From: Gammaproteobacteria bacterium
GTDB taxonomy: Bacteria; Pseudomonadota; Gammaproteobacteria; Pseudomonadales; Azotimanducaceae
NCBI GenBank assembly: GCA_028821405.1
Contig: JAPPGK010000028.1
Coordinates: forward strand, 1 to 64,000
Direction: 5' to 3'
DNA: 64,000 nt
Of this stretch, positions 54,917 to 64,000 are shown piece by piece (positions within the stretch are counted from its first letter, which is position 1; every line of letters begins with the position of its first letter). Below the pieces are notes generated by a model that worked only from the letters and a program-made list of their open reading frames with translations, did not search any database and was not told the origin of the DNA. A program made the translations under genes and the position numbers.

Positions 54917-55843
54917 TCAGGGTGGAAGTCGACCCAGGAAGTCGTCGAGGCTGGTGCTCTCGAGTGCTGCCCGGAGGACCGTGTCCCGTGGCAGCGCGGC
55001 AATGCGGTGCGCTTCGGCATGGAACCGTGGCGTGACATCGATGCCCCGCGTCTCGAGCAGGCCTTCGAGCATGGACATCCGTTCGTCTTGGCGGCCCTCG
55101 CGCCGGCTAAGCCGGCGTTCGACGCCGAGGAACGGGTCGTCCTCCGGCCCGGTTCCGGTACGCCGGCCCATGATGTCGCCGACCCGGCGCACGGTTTCCA
55201 CGGTGGCTGCGGAGGTGCTCGGCTCGTTCAGCGCCGCGTGGATCTCCACCGCCGTCAACGTTGGGAACGCCGCGCTCTCGTCGCGCTCCCGGAACCGGCC
55301 GTCCTCGAGAAGGTGGATGGTCAAGCCCGGTCGCTTGCGCTTGCTCGGCAGATCCGCGTCGGGTACTTCGACCCACAGCTCCGGAACACCCCAGGCGGCG
55401 TAGACGTCGAGCTTCCGGTCGCGGATGTCGGTGGTCAGGTCCACCTCGAATACGACGTCGGGTAGTGGGAGGTCGCCGACCACGAATACGTCGGGCACGT
55501 CGTAGCGGTAGTCGACGTAGATCAGTTCGTCGGCCTGGGCGGCGCGTATCCGAGAGCCGCCGACCCCGCGTTCCTGGAGGTCCGCGGTGCCGAACATCGC
55601 CATGGGTATGCCGCGCATCTTGGCAATGTCCCCAATCAGTTCGGCCAAGCGTGCGCTCGGTCGCTCATGCTTCGGACTGGTGTCGCGCAATTCCCAGGCG
55701 ACGCCGGCTTCCCAATACTCGTAGTGCCCGTCGTAGTCGGCCATCTCGGCAGCCGACAGGGGGAAGGGCCGGCAGCCGGAGAGCGCAAAGGTGCTCTCAA
55801 GCCTGCACGTGGGCGCCGATTGCAGCGGCGAGGATGCCGTCAT
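54917..55843 (-). CDS. Uma2-family PD-(D/E)XK nuclease-like protein, copy 1
   Basis: 308 residues from ATG 55843, which aligns with the start of copy 2 (both begin MTA and share STFALxGCRPF). LPDVVFEVDLTTDIRDRK contains the D-x3-E and Lys of the Uma2 nuclease core; WGVPELWVEVPDADLPSKRK follows. A C-terminal extension (EDDPFLGVERRLSRREG and beyond) resembles that of copy 2. Uma2 proteins multiply in genomes of symbionts and cyanobacteria; function poorly known. The ATG overlaps the stop of copy 2 (ATGA). Confidence 0.85.
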   Translation of the reverse strand: MTASSPLQSAPTCRLESTFALSGCRPFPLSAAEMADYDGHYEYWEAGVAWELRDTSPKHERPSARLAELIGDIAKMRGIPMAMFGTADLQERGVGGSRIRAAQADELIYVDYRYDVPDVFVVGDLPLPDVVFEVDLTTDIRDRKLDVYAAWGVPELWVEVPDADLPSKRKRPGLTIHLLEDGRFRERDESAAFPTLTAVEIHAALNEPSTSAATVETVRRVGDIMGRRTGTGPEDDPFLGVERRLSRREGRQDERMSMLEGLLETRGIDVTPRFHAEAHRIAALPRDTVLRAALESTSLDDFLGRLPP

Positions 55844-56826
55844 CGAGAAGTGCGCCCAGCGGTTCGACACAGGAAGTCGTCGGCGTCGGTACTATCGAGC
55901 GCCGCTCGGAGGATCCTGTCCCGAGGCAACGCGGCGATCCGATCCGCCTCGGCCCGCAACGTTGGCGTGATGTCGATGCCGCGGGCCACGAGCAGACCTT
56001 CGAGCATGGATATCCGTTCGTCGCGGCGGCCTTCGCGGCGGCCTTCGCGGTGACCTTCGTGGTGGCCTTGGCGGCGACCCTCGCGCCGGCTCAGCCGGCG
56101 TTCGACACCGAGGAACGGGTCGTCCTCCGGCCCGGTTCCGGTGCGCCGGCCCATGATCCCGCCCACCCGGCGCACGGTTTCCACGGTCGTTGCGGACATG
56201 CTCGGCTCGTTCAGCGCCGCGTGGATCTCCCGTGCCGACAACGTGGGGACCGCCGCACTTTCGGCGGACTCACGGAACGTGCCGTCGTCGAACAGGAGGA
56301 TCGTCAGGCCCGAGGACTTGCGCTTGCCGGGCATGTCCGCGTCCGGCACTTCCACCCACAGCTCCGGAATGCCCCAGGCGGAGTAGACATCGAGCTTGCG
56401 ATCGCGGACGTCGGTGGTCAGGTCCACCTCGAACACCACGTCGGGCAGGGGGAGCTCGCCGACCACGAACACGTCCGGCAGGCCGTAGCGCCAGTCGAGG
56501 CAAACCAGCTCGTCGGCCTGCACGGCGCGCAGCCGGGTGCCCCGGGCGTCGCGCTCCTGGAGGCCCGTGGTGCCCAACAAGGCGATCGGCACGCCGCGCA
56601 TCTTGGCGATGTCGCCGATCAGTTCGACGAGGCGGCTGCGTGGCCATTCGTGCTTCGGGCCGGGTTCGCGCAACTCCCAGGCGACGCCGTCCTCCCAGTA
56701 CTCGTAGCGGCCCTCGTAGTCGATCAGGTGGGTGTCGGTCATCGCGAAGGGTCTGCAGCCGGCGAGTGCGAAGGTACTCTGGAACTTGGTGCGGTGCGCT
56801 GATCGCAACATCGGGAACGCGGTCAT
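55840..56826 (-). CDS. Uma2-family PD-(D/E)XK nuclease-like protein, copy 2
   Basis: 328 residues, a tandem paralog of copy 1. Asp129, Glu133 and Lys144 (PDVVFEVDL then RDRK) form the nuclease core. Residues 248-269 expand a (R/H)EG(R/H) motif (REGRRQGHHEGHREGRREGR), present in copy 1 as a single REGR unit. Both copies end with a conserved helical tail (ERISMLEGLLVARGID, RIAALPRD). A MTAFPMLRSAHRTKF N-terminus precedes the domain. Confidence 0.85.
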   Translation of the reverse strand: MTAFPMLRSAHRTKFQSTFALAGCRPFAMTDTHLIDYEGRYEYWEDGVAWELREPGPKHEWPRSRLVELIGDIAKMRGVPIALLGTTGLQERDARGTRLRAVQADELVCLDWRYGLPDVFVVGELPLPDVVFEVDLTTDVRDRKLDVYSAWGIPELWVEVPDADMPGKRKSSGLTILLFDDGTFRESAESAAVPTLSAREIHAALNEPSMSATTVETVRRVGGIMGRRTGTGPEDDPFLGVERRLSRREGRRQGHHEGHREGRREGRRDERISMLEGLLVARGIDITPTLRAEADRIAALPRDRILRAALDSTDADDFLCRTAGRTSR

Positions 56827-57057: not shown

Positions 57058-57993
57058 ATGGCTCAAGACACCCTCGACGACCGCGACGGTTGGATCTGGC
57101 AGAACGGCGAACTCGTGCCCTGGCGCGATGCCCGGGTCCACGTGCTCACCTACACGCTGCACTACGGCATCGGCGTGTTCGAGGGCGTGCGGGCCTACGA
57201 CACCCCGGCGGGCACGTCCATATTCCGGCTCCGCGACCACACCCGACGCCTGATGGACTCCGCGCAGATCGTGCAGATCGAACTCCCCTATTCCCAGGAC
57301 GAGCTTGAGGCCGCGCAATGTGACGTGTTCGCCGCCAACGAACTCCGGGAAGGCTACCTTCGACCCGTCGTCTACCTGGGTTCGGAGAGCATGGGCCTGC
57401 GAGCCAAGGGCTTGAGCGTTTGCGTCGCCATAGCCTGCTGGCCGTGGCCGAACTATATGGACCCCGAGGCCCGGGAACGCGGCATCACCGTACGCACGTC
57501 CTCCTATACGCGCCATCACGTCAACATCACGATGTGCAAGGCCAAGGCGAACGGCAACTACATCAACTCGATCTTGGCGCTGCGCGAGGCCCAGGATGCG
57601 GGATGCGACGAGGCGCTGTTGCTCGACAATGAAGGCTATGTCGCGGAGGGAACCGGCGAGAACGTCTTCCTGGTCAAGAACGGCACCATCCACACGCCGG
57701 AACTCACCTCCTGCCTGCCCGGGATCACCCGCGACACGATTCTCGTCTTCGCGCGCGAGCAGGGCATCGAAGTCGTGGAAAGGCGCATCACCCGGGACGA
57801 GGTCTACATCGCCGACGAGGCCTTCTTCACGGGCACGGCCGCGGAGGTGCTGCCGATCCGCGAACTCGACGCCCGGGTCATTGGCAACGGCAAACGGGGT
57901 CCTGTGACCGAGACGCTACAATCGCTTTACTTCGATCAGGTGCGGGGACGCCGCGAGGCGCATCCCGAATGGCATACGCCGGTCACCATGTAG
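57058..57993 (+). CDS. ilvE: Branched-chain amino acid aminotransferase
   Basis: Class IV PLP aminotransferase; 311 residues from ATG 57058. WIWQNGELVPWRDARVHVLT, YGIGVFEGVRAYDT, VTMC-type segment ITMCKAKANGNYINSI with the PLP lysine, and EGTGENVFLVKNG are diagnostic. FFTGTAAEVLPI is conserved. Works with IlvD in branched-chain synthesis. Its last 25 bp overlap waaF, the same ilvE-waaF order as in P. aeruginosa. Confidence 0.96.
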   Translation: MAQDTLDDRDGWIWQNGELVPWRDARVHVLTYTLHYGIGVFEGVRAYDTPAGTSIFRLRDHTRRLMDSAQIVQIELPYSQDELEAAQCDVFAANELREGYLRPVVYLGSESMGLRAKGLSVCVAIACWPWPNYMDPEARERGITVRTSSYTRHHVNITMCKAKANGNYINSILALREAQDAGCDEALLLDNEGYVAEGTGENVFLVKNGTIHTPELTSCLPGITRDTILVFAREQGIEVVERRITRDEVYIADEAFFTGTAAEVLPIRELDARVIGNGKRGPVTETLQSLYFDQVRGRREAHPEWHTPVTM

Positions 57994-58982
57994 CCGCGGG
58001 GAAGGTACTGGTAGTAGCCCCCGCCTGGGTCGGGGACATGGTCATGGCCCACACGCTGGTGCCGGGCTTGGTCCGTCGCGGTGCCGTGGTCGAGTTCCTG
58101 GCGCCGCCGGCATGCGCCGACCTCGCCCGTCGCATGCCGGGCGTCGCGGCGGTCCATGACTTGAACGTCGGGCACGGTGAACTCGGTCTCGGCGAGCGAA
58201 CGCGGGTTGCTCGGCGTCTGCGGTGCCGAGAGTTCGACTGGGCGATCGTGCTACCGAACTCCTTCAAGTCGGCGCTGGTGCCCTTTCTCGCCGGTATACC
58301 CCGTCGCACGGGCTTCACGGGGGAAGCGCGGCTCGGACTCGTCAACGACAGGCGGAGACTCCGGGTTCGGGACCTGCCGCGCCAGGTAGACCGGTTCGCG
58401 GCCCTCGCCGACGTGACGCCCGAGGATCCCCGCCTGTGCGCCGACCCGGCCAACCGCGCGGCGTTGCTTCGCAGACTCGGGCTGGGTGCGGCTGGCAACC
58501 TCGTCGCGCTCTGCCCGGGCGCGGAATACGGACCCTCGAAACGCTGGCCCGGGGAGCGGTTCGCGGAACTGGCGAGGCGATTGGCGACGGCCGGGGTCGC
58601 GGTCTGCGTCCTGGGTAGTGCCCGCGACGCCGAACTGGGGGAAGCCGTCGCTAGCGATTCCCCGGCGCATGACCTGACCGGTAGGACCGACCTCCTGGAC
58701 GCCGTGGACATCCTCTCGGCGTCTTGCCTCGCGGTCACGAACGATTCCGGGCTGATGCATGTCTCGGCGGCGCTGGGTGTGCCGGTCGTTGCCATCTACG
58801 GATCCACGACGCCCGAATTCACACCGCCGCTGTCGACCCGGGCGGTCACCATCGGCCAGGATCTTCCGTGTCGGCCCTGCTTTCGGCGGGAGTGCCCGTT
58901 GGGCCATCGAGCCTGCCTCAACAACACGTCGGTGGAACGCGTGATGGGGGAGGTCCACGAACTCGGGGTTCTTCGCGGATGA
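57969..58982 (+). CDS. waaF: ADP-heptose:LPS heptosyltransferase II
   Basis: GT9 enzyme adding the second heptose to the LPS inner core. 337 residues from ATG 57969, inside the end of ilvE. VLVVAPAWVGDMVMAHTL is the N-terminal motif. CPGAEYGPSKRWPGERFAEL and VTNDSGLMHVSAALGVPVVA with YGSTTPEFTPP form the ADP-heptose site. Stop overlaps the waaC ATG. Confidence 0.95.
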   Translation: MAYAGHHVAAGKVLVVAPAWVGDMVMAHTLVPGLVRRGAVVEFLAPPACADLARRMPGVAAVHDLNVGHGELGLGERTRVARRLRCREFDWAIVLPNSFKSALVPFLAGIPRRTGFTGEARLGLVNDRRRLRVRDLPRQVDRFAALADVTPEDPRLCADPANRAALLRRLGLGAAGNLVALCPGAEYGPSKRWPGERFAELARRLATAGVAVCVLGSARDAELGEAVASDSPAHDLTGRTDLLDAVDILSASCLAVTNDSGLMHVSAALGVPVVAIYGSTTPEFTPPLSTRAVTIGQDLPCRPCFRRECPLGHRACLNNTSVERVMGEVHELGVLRG

Positions 58983-60028
58983 ACGTGTTGCTCCTCAAGA
59001 TGTCGTCGTTGGGCGACATCGTGCACACGCTGCCTGCCGTCGCCGATGCCGAGCGCCAGGGCGTACGGTTCGACTGGGTCGTGGAGGAGAACTGTCGGAC
59101 CGTACCGGCTCGGGCCCGCGGCGTGGAACAGGTGATCGAGGTGGCCTTCCGGCGTTGGCGAACCGCGCCGTTCGGGTTCGCCCCGGAACTGGCGGCGTTT
59201 CGTCGGCGCCTCCGGCGGCGCCGCTACGACTTGGTGCTTGACGCCCAGGGGTTGATCAAGAGTGCCGTCGTCGGGGTTTGGGCACGAGCGGATGAACGCG
59301 TCGGCTTCGATGCGGCGAGCGCCCGCGAACGCGCCGCGACGTTGGGCTACGGTCGCCGCATTTCCGTCCCCGGCCGCTGGCACGCGATCGATCGGACGCG
59401 CCGCTTGTTCGCGGCCGCGCTCGGCTATGAACAGCCCGATCGCGATCCTGTGTTCGACCTGCGCGGCACGGGCCGCGATGTTGGCACGGGCCGCGAGGTG
59501 GTGCTGGCCCACGGAACGACATGGACGACGAAGCACTGGCCGGAAGCGTTCTGGATCGCGCTTGCGCGGCTCGCGACAGCCCATGGACTCGTTCCGGTAT
59601 TGCCGTGGTCGCCCGGCGAGCGTGGCCGCGCCGAACGTATCGCCAACGCCGTGTCCGGCGCCCGGGTCTGCCCGCCGTCGGACTTGGACGGCATCATGGA
59701 ATTGCTCGCGACCGCGAGCGGTGTCGTCGGGGTTGACAGCGGACTCGCGCATCTCGGGGCTGCCTTGGGACGGCCGACGGTGGCGTTGTTCGGACCGACG
59801 GACCCGTTGCTCACCGGTTCCCGGGGCCCATACGTGTGCAATCTCACCGCGTCGTTGGCGTGTTCGCCGTGCCGTTCGCGGCGCTGCCGGCTGGAAGGTC
59901 GGTTCCCGAGGCGATACGGCGCCAGTCGTTCGGTACCCCCGTGCCTGCAGGCCGTCGAGCCGGTGCGCGCATGGGCCGCGCTGACCGACCTGATGAAACG
60001 GCAGTGCCGCGATTGCCTGGCGAGGTAG
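58979..60028 (+). CDS. waaC: LPS heptosyltransferase I
   Basis: Adds the first heptose to Kdo2-lipid A. 349 residues from ATG 58979. NVLLLKMSSLGDIVHTLPAV is the signature start, LDAQGLIKSAV is conserved, and HGTTWTTKHWPEAFWIAL plus VGVDSGLAHLGAALGRPTVA and LFGPTDPLLTG are the GT9 donor motifs. The C-terminus has an unusual Cys/Arg-rich extension (LACSPCRSRRCRLEGRF) reminiscent of the CxxC segment of WaaF-type proteins. Confidence 0.94.
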   Translation: MNVLLLKMSSLGDIVHTLPAVADAERQGVRFDWVVEENCRTVPARARGVEQVIEVAFRRWRTAPFGFAPELAAFRRRLRRRRYDLVLDAQGLIKSAVVGVWARADERVGFDAASARERAATLGYGRRISVPGRWHAIDRTRRLFAAALGYEQPDRDPVFDLRGTGRDVGTGREVVLAHGTTWTTKHWPEAFWIALARLATAHGLVPVLPWSPGERGRAERIANAVSGARVCPPSDLDGIMELLATASGVVGVDSGLAHLGAALGRPTVALFGPTDPLLTGSRGPYVCNLTASLACSPCRSRRCRLEGRFPRRYGASRSVPPCLQAVEPVRAWAALTDLMKRQCRDCLAR

Positions 60029-60041
60029 CCACGAACGATCC

Positions 60042-62117
60042 ATGCACGTCGCGTTTGCCATCTTCAAGTTCTTTCCCCACGGCGGTTCCGCCCGGGACCT
60101 CGTCAAGATCGTCTCGCGGTGCCGGGAGCGAGGACACGATGTGCGCATCTACGCGCTCGAGTGGCAAGGCGCCCCTCTCAAGGGCGCGGAGACGATTGTG
60201 CTGGCGGCGGCGGGCGTTCGCAGCCATGTCCGACAACGTCGATTCGCCGGTCTCGTCGCGGATCACGTCGCTCGCCATCCGGTCGATCTCGTCGTTGGAA
60301 TGAACAAGATGCCCGGCCTCGACGTCTACTACGCCGCCGATTCCTGTTTCGAGCAGAAGGCGCGAACCCAGCGTCCGTGGTCATATCGACTGACGGCCCG
60401 CTATCGACATTACGCCGAGTTCGAACGTGCCGCTTTCGCCGAACACGGCCGCACCCGCATCCTGACGATCGCCCCGGACCAGGACGCGGCCTTCAAGGCC
60501 ATCTACCGCACACCGGCTCACCGGTTTCATCCATTGCCTCCGGGGATCGAGCGGGACCGGGGATCCGCCACGGCACAGGCGGGTAGGGCGCTGAGAAGTG
60601 AACTCGGCGTCGCCGCCGCCGACATCCTGCTGCTGTTTGTCGGGTCGGGCTTCGTCAAGAAGGGGCTCGACCGGGCCATTGCGGGCGTGGGCGCACTGCC
60701 GCTTGAGGTGCGGGCACGGGTGCGTCTGGTGGTCGTTGGCGACGACAGGGCCGCGCGATTCAAGCGATTGGCGCAGCGACTGGGGGTCGCATCGCAGGTG
60801 CAGTTCGTAGGCGGACGGGACGACCTGGCGGCCTGCTATCGGGCTGCGGACGCCTTGGTGCTCCCCGCCTACGACGAGGCGGGAGGGATGGTGATTCTGG
60901 AGGCCGCCAGCGCGGGCGTTCCCGTGCTGGCGACGGCGAACTGCGGCTACGCGTCCTATCTGGAGGAAGCCAACGCGGGGATCGTCACGCCTGAACCCTT
61001 CGAGCAGGCGCGTTTCGACGCCGACCTCTTGAGGCTGCTCACCGCGGACGAACGGGACGCCTGGCGCCGGGGAGGGCGGCGACTGGCGAGGGACGACTGC
61101 CTATCGGCGATGGCGCCCCGCGCCGTCGAGTTGCTCGAGACGTTTGCCGCCGGGTGTGAGCCACCCATGGTGAGCTTTTCCGCGCTCGACTATTCGAGGG
61201 CCGATCCCAAGTATCGGTCGCTGTTCCCGGTGGCACATGCTTGCCAACAACGGGGCATGAAGGTGCGGGTCTTCGTCGGCCGATGGCGAGACTTTTCGCC
61301 GGCCGGGATCGACATCGTGGCGGTACCGGTGACGGCCCTCGGCCGGGCGGCGAGACGCAGGCGTCGCCGGGATTGGGTGGCCGAATGCCTCCGGCTGACG
61401 CCGGCGGGATGCTTCGTCGATGTCGATGCCGCGTCCGGCATCGGAATCGAAGCAGGAACGGCGGACGACCCCAAAGCCGATCCTCGTCTACCCCTGGGGC
61501 TGGAACGGTCGAGGAACCGGGCGGGGATCCGCAATGCGCTGCGCGAGGAACATGGTTTCACCGCTCGGACCGTCGTCTTTGCGATGGCCGGCGGCGACTT
61601 GGTCGAGCATGGGATCGAGCGCATGCTGATGGCGCTGGGAAGGTTGCCCGAGGCGCTCCGCGACCGCTGTGCCGTATTGGCTACCGGTCGATTGGACCGG
61701 GGTTTCGGCGCCGCTGGGCGGGTGCTGAAACTGGACGGTCGGATCGTCGTCCTCGATGAACTCCCGGCGCTCGACGCCATCGCCGCCTCGGACGCGTTCG
61801 TGGATCTACCCTACAGGGCGTCTGCCAACGGCTGGGTCTTCGACGCGATCGCCGCTGGACGACCGGTGATCACCCACGCTGGTCTCGAAGAGTCGACGCT
61901 GGTCCAAGCTGCCGACGCCGGCCTCGTGCTGGCCGTGCCGTTCCGGCAACGGGACTTCAACCTCGCAGTGGCGGACTTCGCGGGATCGGTCGAGGCGCGC
62001 GGGACGTGGTCCGCCAATGCCACGCGGTTCGCCCGGGATCCGGCGAATTACGGTCACGCGGATCGGGTGGCGGTGGCCATCGAACGACAGGCGCAGATGG
62101 GGAGCGCGCGTGCGTGA
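60042..62117 (+). CDS. WaaG-type glycosyltransferase fused to a second GT-like domain
   Basis: 691 residues, about twice WaaG (~374). Residues 1-375 are a full GT4 enzyme like WaaG (core glucosyltransferase): HVAFAIFKFFPHGGSARDL, a Kdo/heptose-facing VVGMNKMPGLDVYYAADSCF, LLFVGSGFVKKGLDRAI, and LVLPAYDEAGGMVILEAASA with the E-x7-E motif. Residues 376-691 repeat the plan in decayed form: RNALREEHGFTARTVVFAMA, VEHGIERMLMALGRLPE, FVDLPYRASANGWVFDAIAA, with no E-x7-E pair. No stop, frameshift or internal start with a clear ribosome site separates them. It overlaps the kinase gene by 8 nt. Confidence 0.85.
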   Translation: MHVAFAIFKFFPHGGSARDLVKIVSRCRERGHDVRIYALEWQGAPLKGAETIVLAAAGVRSHVRQRRFAGLVADHVARHPVDLVVGMNKMPGLDVYYAADSCFEQKARTQRPWSYRLTARYRHYAEFERAAFAEHGRTRILTIAPDQDAAFKAIYRTPAHRFHPLPPGIERDRGSATAQAGRALRSELGVAAADILLLFVGSGFVKKGLDRAIAGVGALPLEVRARVRLVVVGDDRAARFKRLAQRLGVASQVQFVGGRDDLAACYRAADALVLPAYDEAGGMVILEAASAGVPVLATANCGYASYLEEANAGIVTPEPFEQARFDADLLRLLTADERDAWRRGGRRLARDDCLSAMAPRAVELLETFAAGCEPPMVSFSALDYSRADPKYRSLFPVAHACQQRGMKVRVFVGRWRDFSPAGIDIVAVPVTALGRAARRRRRRDWVAECLRLTPAGCFVDVDAASGIGIEAGTADDPKADPRLPLGLERSRNRAGIRNALREEHGFTARTVVFAMAGGDLVEHGIERMLMALGRLPEALRDRCAVLATGRLDRGFGAAGRVLKLDGRIVVLDELPALDAIAASDAFVDLPYRASANGWVFDAIAAGRPVITHAGLEESTLVQAADAGLVLAVPFRQRDFNLAVADFAGSVEARGTWSANATRFARDPANYGHADRVAVAIERQAQMGSARA

Positions 62118-64000
62118 TCACTATCTGCGTGACGATCTCGACGTCGCGTGGCGATCTGGCGCCCTGGGTAGCGGCGGCGACGTCTTCGCAGCGCTGTCGA
62201 CCTTGCAGGGGGAGGTCTATCGGACCTCGGCTCGTCGACGCACGTCGCGGGTCGTGGTTGCCCGGAGAGCGTACTTCGTCAAGGTTCACTTCGGGGTCGG
62301 CTGGCGGGAGATCGCGAAGAACCTGCTGTCCGGCAAGCGACCGGTGCTGGGCGCCCGGCAAGAGTTCGAAGCCAGCCGGCGACTACGCGCCTGCGAGGTG
62401 CCGGTGCCCGGTGTCGCCGCTTTCGTCGAGCGTGGAGTCAACCCCGCACGACGCCGCTCGTTCGTCGCCTGCGATGCCTTGGACGGCTTCACGAGCCTTG
62501 AGGAAGTGGGCAACGGTTGGCTCGAGTCACCCCCCGAGGTGCGGCTCAAGCGAGCGTTGGTAGCCGCCGTCGGTCGGCTTACCGCCGCGATGCATGCGGC
62601 GGGCGTTTGCCACCGTGACTACTACGCCTGCCACCTGATGGCGAATGCGGGCAAGCTGGGTCGGGGCGAGGTGGAACTTGCGATCATCGACCTGCACCGC
62701 GCGCGGGTGAACCGCCATGTCTCCACCCGCGCGCGGGTGCGGGATCTCGGGGCACTTCTCTATTCGACCGCCACGATGCCGCTCACCGATCGCGATCGAC
62801 GCCGTTTCGTGGCGGCCTATGCGGGGCAGTCGTCGAATCGTGAACTGCGATGCCCGGGGTTTTGGCGTGCGGTAGCGCGTCGCGCCGAACGACTATGCGC
62901 AAGGGCCGCGGCCGCCGGCGTCGCAACAGGCCGGAACGTGCTTGGCGGGGCGCAGATCGCCTCGGTAGGCCGCCTTGCCGATCTGGATCGGCATCCGCCG
63001 TTGCCGTTCCGGTTCGATGCGGATCTCGGCGACGGCGGTGTGCGGGTCGTATGCACTGGTGTGCTTCGGGCCCAACCCGGTCGCCGGCTGGTGCTGCACG
63101 CCCTCGCCGACGGCCGCGAACTGGTCCTGAAGGCGTACTTCGGGCGCCGTGCGCAGCGCGACTGGCGGCGCGAACAGAACGGCGCAAAGCTCCTAGGGTC
63201 GTGTGACGTGGCGACGCCGGAACTGCTGGCCACCGGTCGAGGTGCCGGGGCGCGCCTGCTGGCCTTCGAAGCGATCAAGGACGCACAGCCACCGTCGGTC
63301 GGTGATGTGGGTGAGCTGATTGACGTATTGGCGCGGATGCACCGGCACAGGGTTCGTCAACGCGACCTGCACCCGGACAACTTTCTCGTCTCACGGGGGC
63401 GGGTGTTTGCGATCGACGGGGGCAACGTCGCCAAGTCAACGACCTTGCGCGACTCGCGCCGGTTGGCGGACATCGCGGGACTGCTGGCGCACTACCCCGT
63501 TGAAGCGCTCGCGCCGCTCTCGGAGTTGGCCAGGATGTACCAGGACGCGGCCGGCGCCCCGTTGCCCGAACGTGCATTGCGTCGTCTCGGAACCCGCGTG
63601 GCGGGCGCTCGCCGCCGCCGCGTCGCCAAGTTCGTTGCAAAGACAGGGCGCGAGTGCTCGGCGTTCGCCGTCCGCCAGGAGCCAGGTCGCCGAGTGGTCG
63701 TCGCCCGCGGCGACGACGATCCCGAGCTTCTGGCCATCATCGACGATCTCGAACATGCCCTGGCCGAGGGCGAGCCGTTGAAACGCGGCAACACGGCAGC
63801 CGCCGTCCGGTTCGGCGGCTTCGTTGTCAAGCGCTACAACGTCAAGGACCGATGGCATCGGCGCCGCTTGGGACTGCGGCGGCGCCGGGCCCGGCGAGCC
63901 TGGCGGGCCGGACATGGTTTGCGGTTCGTTGGCTTGGCCACGCCACGACCACGCGCGCTGATCGAGATGCACCGGCCCGATGTCGGCAATGCCGTCGCCT
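62110..64000 (+). CDS. Fused LPS core kinase: WaaP domain plus further kinase domains (partial)
   Basis: Open frame from GTG 62110 to the window edge, at least 630 codons, no stop. Domain 1 (about 1-265) is WaaP, heptose kinase: YFVKVHFGVGWREIAKNLL with Lys58, and HRDYYACHL, where Asp170 is the catalytic base. Domain 2 (about 280-500) has LVLKAYFGRRAQRDWRRE (Lys341), RQRDLHPDNFLV (Asp419, Asn424) and VFAIDGGN. A third begins near 545: LKRGNTAAAVRFGGFVVKRY (Lys574), then a basic stretch and FVGLATPRPRALIEM. Pseudomonas has separate waaP, wapG, wapP and wapQ genes; here at least three kinase modules form one chain. The 3' end is outside the window. Confidence 0.82.
   Translation, partial: MRDHYLRDDLDVAWRSGALGSGGDVFAALSTLQGEVYRTSARRRTSRVVVARRAYFVKVHFGVGWREIAKNLLSGKRPVLGARQEFEASRRLRACEVPVPGVAAFVERGVNPARRRSFVACDALDGFTSLEEVGNGWLESPPEVRLKRALVAAVGRLTAAMHAAGVCHRDYYACHLMANAGKLGRGEVELAIIDLHRARVNRHVSTRARVRDLGALLYSTATMPLTDRDRRRFVAAYAGQSSNRELRCPGFWRAVARRAERLCARAAAAGVATGRNVLGGAQIASVGRLADLDRHPPLPFRFDADLGDGGVRVVCTGVLRAQPGRRLVLHALADGRELVLKAYFGRRAQRDWRREQNGAKLLGSCDVATPELLATGRGAGARLLAFEAIKDAQPPSVGDVGELIDVLARMHRHRVRQRDLHPDNFLVSRGRVFAIDGGNVAKSTTLRDSRRLADIAGLLAHYPVEALAPLSELARMYQDAAGAPLPERALRRLGTRVAGARRRRVAKFVAKTGRECSAFAVRQEPGRRVVVARGDDDPELLAIIDDLEHALAEGEPLKRGNTAAAVRFGGFVVKRYNVKDRWHRRRLGLRRRRARRAWRAGHGLRFVGLATPRPRALIEMHRPDVGNAVA

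Follow-up and report, generated by a model that had tools for sequence, protein, structure and literature searches.

The DNA considered here, a stretch of 64,000 bases (the window) comprising bases 1-64000 of the 120,342-base contig JAPPGK010000028.1 in a 4.77 Mb, 122-contig draft genome of a gammaproteobacterium of the family Azotimanducaceae, carries in its lipopolysaccharide (LPS) inner-core operon a single gene whose product joins three kinase modules. The N-terminal module, D1, is a WaaP heptose kinase, and the two that follow it, D2 and D3, appear to correspond to a two-module putative kinase of the type encoded by PA5006 in Pseudomonas aeruginosa. That the fused frame is real and complete is confirmed far beyond chance, and the distribution of the same architecture among relatives points to its having arisen repeatedly.

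The fused gene and its modules

Positions are those of the window, and each feature is on the forward strand (+).
62110..64000 (+), continuing on the contig to the stop at 64303-64305: fused LPS-kinase gene, 731 amino acids, from its frame and full-length relatives
62155..62910 (+): D1, WaaP heptose(I) kinase module, residues ~16-267, with HRDYY (168-172) at 62611-62625, from NF011703, PF06293 and 6dfl
62893..62961 (+): D1-to-D2 junction, residues 262-284, open in the relatives compared and with no conserved start codon of the window gene
62962..63639 (+): D2, probable first module of a PA5006-type kinase, with Lys341, RDLHPDN (418-424) and IDGG, from PF01636 and a profile search of PDB chains
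63655..64000 (+), to ~64284 on the contig: D3, probable second PA5006-type module, with LKRGNT, VVKRYN, HGDTKASN and LDLD

A first-pass annotation, made from the letters of the window, had described one frame of at least 630 codons with a complete WaaP kinase, a second kinase and the beginning of a third, and had left the stop to be sought past 64000. Reading the contig beyond the window edge gives a gene of 731 codons from GTG 62110 to the stop at 64303-64305, in which all of the residues quoted then are present when numbered from the GTG (HRDYY with Asp170, Lys341, RDLHPDN, LKRGNT and VVKRYN) and the third module is completed by HGDTKASN and LDLD. An alternative upstream start, ATG 62017, is in the same frame, with no stop before the window edge. 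A gene starting at GTG 62110 shares 8 bases with the end of the upstream glycosyltransferase gene, stop included, and from the GTG residue onward the protein aligns with three relatives from metagenome-assembled genomes at 66-69% identity over nearly its whole length; GTG 62110 is the more likely start.

The domain search bears out that D1 is a complete WaaP. It scores 256.2 bits against the NCBIfam equivalog NF011703 (RfaP/WaaP), for which the curated cut-off is 170, matches PF06293 with an E-value of 1e-48 and the solved P. aeruginosa WaaP structure, 6dfl, with one of 4.9e-57, and holds the catalytic Lys, the Glu, the HRD Asp and the second metal-binding Asp. At six catalytic columns of D1, 25 of the 27 fused rows aligned are identical, the exceptions being G435 (Asp for Glu) and G430 (where a stretch of D1 consists of unread letters).

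D2 and D3 are more divergent, and no Pfam family beyond that of D1 is above cut-off in the whole fused protein. D2 on its own reaches 24.2 bits against PF01636 (APH), where the cut-off is 23.2, and D3 on its own matches no Pfam family at E 0.01. Profiles built from relatives match many solved kinases among PDB chains, with 6dfl the best for both D2 (47 rows, 4e-8) and D3 (46 rows, 8.9e-9); single rows match PF06293 at E 0.01 for 24/47 of D2 and 45/46 of D3, and the two profiles match each other with an hhalign probability of 98.9%. The catalytic columns are kept nearly throughout, in D2 (n = 62) with Lys in 61, His in 62, Asp in 62, Asn in 61 and the second Asp in 61, and in D3 (n = 71) with Lys in 68, His in 71, Asp in 70, Asn in 70 and the second Asp in 70, and all 18 of the 18 triple fusions are identical to the window protein at every D2 column (7) and D3 column (8) examined. 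By sequence comparison D2 and D3 thus read as kinase families. D3 is alike in sequence to Bud32/TP53RK and RIO kinases, but a Bud32 identity was rejected, as it scores 51.4 bits against TIGR03724, far under the cut-off of 125, and is in an LPS operon.

The probable counterpart of D2-D3

In the Pseudomonas-type loci L100, L101 and L133, waaF, waaC and a glycosyltransferase gene precede waaP, which is followed by two WaaP-like paralogues, D2-D3 and a carbamoyltransferase gene. A score of 482.8 bits between the WaaP of L100 and 6dfl, the P. aeruginosa chain, is the ground for taking that locus as Pseudomonas. In all three loci, profiles built from the window modules pick up D2 and D3 in the same order, in single frames of 511-531 amino acids. 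Passages of PMC8005017 and PMC8707732 name the P. aeruginosa genes as waaP (PA5009), wapP (PA5008) and wapQ (PA5007), leave PA5006 as an unnamed putative kinase and give wapG (PA5010) as a sugar transferase; one of the two also has wapO (PA5005) as a carbamoyltransferase. From this gene order and these names, together with size and module order, D2-D3 is most simply assigned as a PA5006-type kinase, PA5006 of strain PAO1 itself presumably sharing the layout. D2-D3 of the window gene likewise adjoins a carbamoyltransferase (wapO-type) frame, and instead of being a separate protein it shares one frame with WaaP, and none of the start codons of the window gene at the junction is conserved.

The interpretation first given, that one gene combines WaaP with a two-module kinase, therefore stands apart from its partner name: WapQ (PA5007) was rejected on gene order and on the published names, though these conflict in print. 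Naming is not uniform, since a passage of PMC8982409 gives the PSPTO4998 kinase as wapQ/wapG/inaA. The same passage lends some basis to the inclusion of WapG among the core kinases in the first-pass annotation, which is otherwise at odds with PA5010 being a sugar transferase (PMC8005017, PMC8707732).

Across the window genome PF06293 finds one gene. The strongest hit of a WapP/WapQ profile (A5) is D1 itself, at 5.9e-22, and its one other match covers 41 model positions at 4.6e-4, so no convincing gene of that type was found, and beyond D3 itself the D3 profile (A4) has matches in the window genome that are short and weak, at E 1.7e-7 or worse. Because of these results the core-kinase modules recognized by PF06293, A5 and A4 all appear to be in one protein, with the WaaY type (PF06176) not searched for genome-wide.

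Conservation of the join within the genus

The genus is represented by 16 genomes, 10 of which (G000, G427, G428, G430 to G435 and G438) have all three modules in one stop-free frame, eight of the 10 having been read a second time; G431, G433 and G435 are the genomes of loci L004, L005 and L003, and each is counted once. G438 is a single-contig assembly, and three fused genomes from other genera of the family, G423, G424 and G252, likewise consist of one contig. A further genome of the genus, G429, is cut by contig ends in a manner consistent with fusion, G439 keeps D1-D2 and has lost D3, and G426, at 74% completeness, yields no match to the fused protein.

The junction itself evolves as coding sequence does. 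For residues 251-300, in 300 codon comparisons with six relatives, there are 70, 63 and 180 differences at codon positions 1, 2 and 3, and the insertions are of one residue, whole codons in the protein alignment. Of the two possible start codons of the window gene within residues 240-310, one is kept in 0/6 relatives and the other in 2/6, start codons of the window gene being the ones considered. L068, L069 and L070 had been dropped from this comparison by a motif filter, and counts for the D1 core were not used as they include the unread letters of L066. An assembly error or a missed frameshift joining two genes, which the fragmentation of the draft genome into 122 contigs might bring to mind and which the first-pass annotation had named as what would refute it, is argued against by the full-length relatives, by the sharing of the join among 10/16 genus genomes, one of them single-contig, and by the codon-like pattern of junction substitutions; it can be treated as having a negligible chance of being right.

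Distribution and repeated origin

The same fusion was also sought in other lineages. Eighty loci were chosen by hand with fused cases being sought, so that the triple fusions do not represent a frequency: the 79 WaaP rows comprise 44 with WaaP alone in its frame, 18 with WaaP-D2-D3, eight with WaaP-D3, eight with glycosyltransferase-WaaP and one with WaaP-D2. On a quick WaaP tree the triple fusion needs seven changes, all seven forced by starred branches, keeping in mind that the stars of a quick tree are less trustworthy, and the seven groups are the window genus, G423/G424, G252, G387/G388/G398, G441/G800, G779 and G573. A careful WaaP (D1) tree, from which G762 was left out for its long branch, needs eight changes. 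The careful D2-D3 tree (60 of 62 rows, two short ones being left out) needs seven, forced by starred branches, with seven across the 5-95% bootstrap range. The contig-cut L102 was in none of the trees. A single fused clade is rejected with p 9.2e-61 on the WaaP tree and 7.7e-46 on the D2-D3 tree. Changes on the trees are gains and losses alike, and gains of the fusion would be the simpler reading because most rows are unfused. The joint of WaaP to the rest, supposed at first to be the novel element, is thus upheld as a joint and not as a single oddity, at least seven changes being needed on the trees of both halves.

Among 369 genomes sampled across the class, 55 with a match, the triple fusion is present in the window genome and in at least four others (G441, G800, G779 and G573). 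Among 244 sampled across the order, 81 with a match, the window genome has the only stop-free D1-to-D3 match among the matches listed, where one fusion may appear as two matches. Two further candidates were set aside: G250 (L083) has an apparent 811-amino-acid frame with stops between the parts in its DNA and was counted as separate, and G041 has two separate frames. In G002 a D2-D3-like match (C146:5650-6657, query residues 403-721) is inside a 793-amino-acid frame, possibly another kinase fusion.

Partial joins occur as well. WaaP and D3 are in one frame, with D2 missing, in L095, L096, L097 and L118-L122, from several families and with four changes on the quick tree. A glycosyltransferase is joined N-terminal to WaaP in L077, L078, L079, L093, L103, L111, L126 and L139, with six changes on that tree, and no D2-D3 was found in the fetched loci of L077-L079. 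The sole WaaP-D2 row, L073 (5017-6621) of G439, has lost the D2 Lys, Glu, second His, Asn and second Asp, and its D2 is best read as a decaying fusion partner. D3 is present in 26 of the 27 fused rows, eight of them without D2; on these counts, and with the D3-less G439 having lost D2 catalytic residues, D3 looks like the constant partner of WaaP, more so than D2.

Neighboring genes

Upstream of the fused gene are an aminotransferase gene, waaF, waaC and a double glycosyltransferase gene:
57969..58982 (+): waaF, heptosyltransferase II, TIGR02195 360.7 bits against a cut-off of 134.6
58976..60028 (+): waaC, heptosyltransferase I, TIGR02193 289.3 bits against a cut-off of 185.3
60042..62117 (+): glycosyltransferase in the WapG/WaaG position and a second, divergent glycosyltransferase copy, in one gene

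Directly downstream is a carbamoyltransferase gene (PF02543, PF16861), followed by another glycosyltransferase gene and hldE. The glycosyltransferase gene at 60042-62117 (+) is itself a fusion with a very divergent C-terminal copy. On inspection by eye the first Glu of E-x7-E, a glycosyltransferase motif, is missing from this second copy, which may therefore be inactive. Both copies score well in several other genera of the family (L087, L090 and L142-L145). Just before the LPS operon are two similar tandem genes for putative endonucleases of the Uma2 family (PF05685), at 54917-56826 (-).

Proposed function of the fused protein

The reading favored, with rather more belief than doubt, is of a cytosolic three-module inner-core kinase in which WaaP is joined to a PA5006-type D2-D3, the fusion keeping the activities on one nascent core. 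At the inner membrane, D1 would phosphorylate heptose I of the nascent lipid A-core, D2-D3 would then add a further phosphate, or phosphates, to the same heptose region, and the fusion would hold on one nascent core molecule activities that in many relatives are encoded by side-by-side genes. In P. aeruginosa, later phosphorylation of the core seems to depend on that of heptose I, according to a passage of PMC6147952. Addition of the next phosphate(s) after WaaP is the most likely role for D2-D3, phosphorylation of LPS by either module being a prediction, and the repeated join suggests that WaaP and the PA5006-type kinase work as a team. The join would presumably matter for coupling, and processive action, which had been proposed at the outset together with a stoichiometry that the fusion might fix, is conjecture. 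A more far-reaching form of this proposal, which is put forward tentatively, is an LPS kinase that carries, in one polypeptide, the heptose phosphorylation of the inner core in this lineage, with three active sites that act sequentially on one bound core and with several independent origins, in which D3, aided by D2, would be a new class dependent on the product of WaaP.

Several observations weigh against the favored reading. Within the genus G425 and G436 have WaaP without D2-D3, and D1 and D3 are in different frames in G437, so the fusion is not required. G439 is without D3 and without D2 catalytic residues, and the eight WaaP-D3 rows keep D3 without D2, which speaks against D2-D3 being one obligatory unit. 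The triple fusion G435 has Asp in the Glu column of the D1 alignment, and the unread letters of G430 are in its D1. An AlphaFold2 model, built from a four-row alignment with L003 as query, was too poor to use (mean predicted local distance difference test score 39.1). PA5006 is termed putative in PMC8707732, a source whose passages on the gene give no activity for a PA5006-type protein. Finally, neighboring genes of this operon fuse easily, glycosyltransferase-WaaP and WaaP-D3 each accounting for 8/79 rows, and so the fusion may be nearly neutral.

That last point underlies a serious rival, possible though somewhat doubtful, in which the join is real and functionally neutral, having come about by loss of a stop or by a small indel, with the modules working as they do when separate. 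Unfused relatives have the genes adjacent, with overlapping stop-to-stop frames, other joins (WaaP-D3, glycosyltransferase-WaaP and glycosyltransferase-glycosyltransferase) are several, and the linkers of the triple fusions vary between lineages in sequence and in length (0 to 22 amino acids between profile matches), all of which would fit with neutrality; the repeated joining of WaaP to D2-D3 and its retention in 10/16 genus genomes speak for function, although neutral joining could give the same pattern. It is unlikely that D2, D3 or both are instead kinase-like modules with a regulatory or scaffolding role, acting on WaaP or anchoring it to partners in the membrane. PA5006 does dimerize and bind the membrane protein PA2576 in the bacterial two-hybrid results given in PMC8707732, where the prey fragment spans 300-493 and, given an L100-like layout of PA5006, would fall on the D3 side, but the presence of the catalytic Lys, Asp, Asn and second Asp in 61-62 of 62 D2 rows and 68-70 of 71 D3 rows is unlike typical pseudokinases. 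Less probable still is that D2-D3 phosphorylates an existing phosphate to yield di- or triphosphates at one site. Diphosphates and minor triphosphates are reported from the Pseudomonas syringae core by 31P nuclear magnetic resonance in PMC8005017, a passage of which has three named heptose kinases and gives PSPTO_4997, the PA5006 equivalent, as unknown; the remainder of such a scheme would be supposition, and no biochemical support for it was found.

Comparison with known systems and significance

The favored three-module kinase is made up of parts of known kinds. Like WaaP/RfaP (PA5009; PDB 6dfl), D1 keeps its catalytic residues and passes the equivalog cut-off, and the window gene similarly follows waaF, waaC and a glycosyltransferase gene, but WaaP is a separate protein in the Pseudomonas-type loci compared and the window protein has ~460 further residues forming two probable kinase modules. 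The PA5006-type putative kinase has D2 and D3 in the same order, with similar length and in the same place before a carbamoyltransferase gene, but is encoded by a separate gene in Pseudomonas. WapP and WapQ (PA5008 and PA5007) are WaaP-like LPS kinases of the same Pseudomonas operon, but they are single-module paralogues, without a convincing counterpart gene found in the window genome. HldE, encoded downstream in the same locus, is also a two-activity protein of the pathway, a heptose kinase/adenylyltransferase, but its parts are from other families (PfkB and cytidylyltransferase-like) and it acts on a sugar precursor rather than on the LPS core. No publication on a WaaP fusion was found in the one open-licence literature collection searched, and the WaaP-D2-D3 architecture is, within that literature, one not found in print.

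The core operon of P. aeruginosa has PA5006 as its fourth kinase gene, described as putative in PMC8707732. Repeated independent fusion is 'Rosetta stone' evidence that PA5006 and WaaP act together on the inner core. This opens the role of PA5006 to direct test, and it is mainly from such a testable assignment that the interest derives. The fused protein would also serve as a single construct with which to measure the order and the coupling of core phosphorylations.

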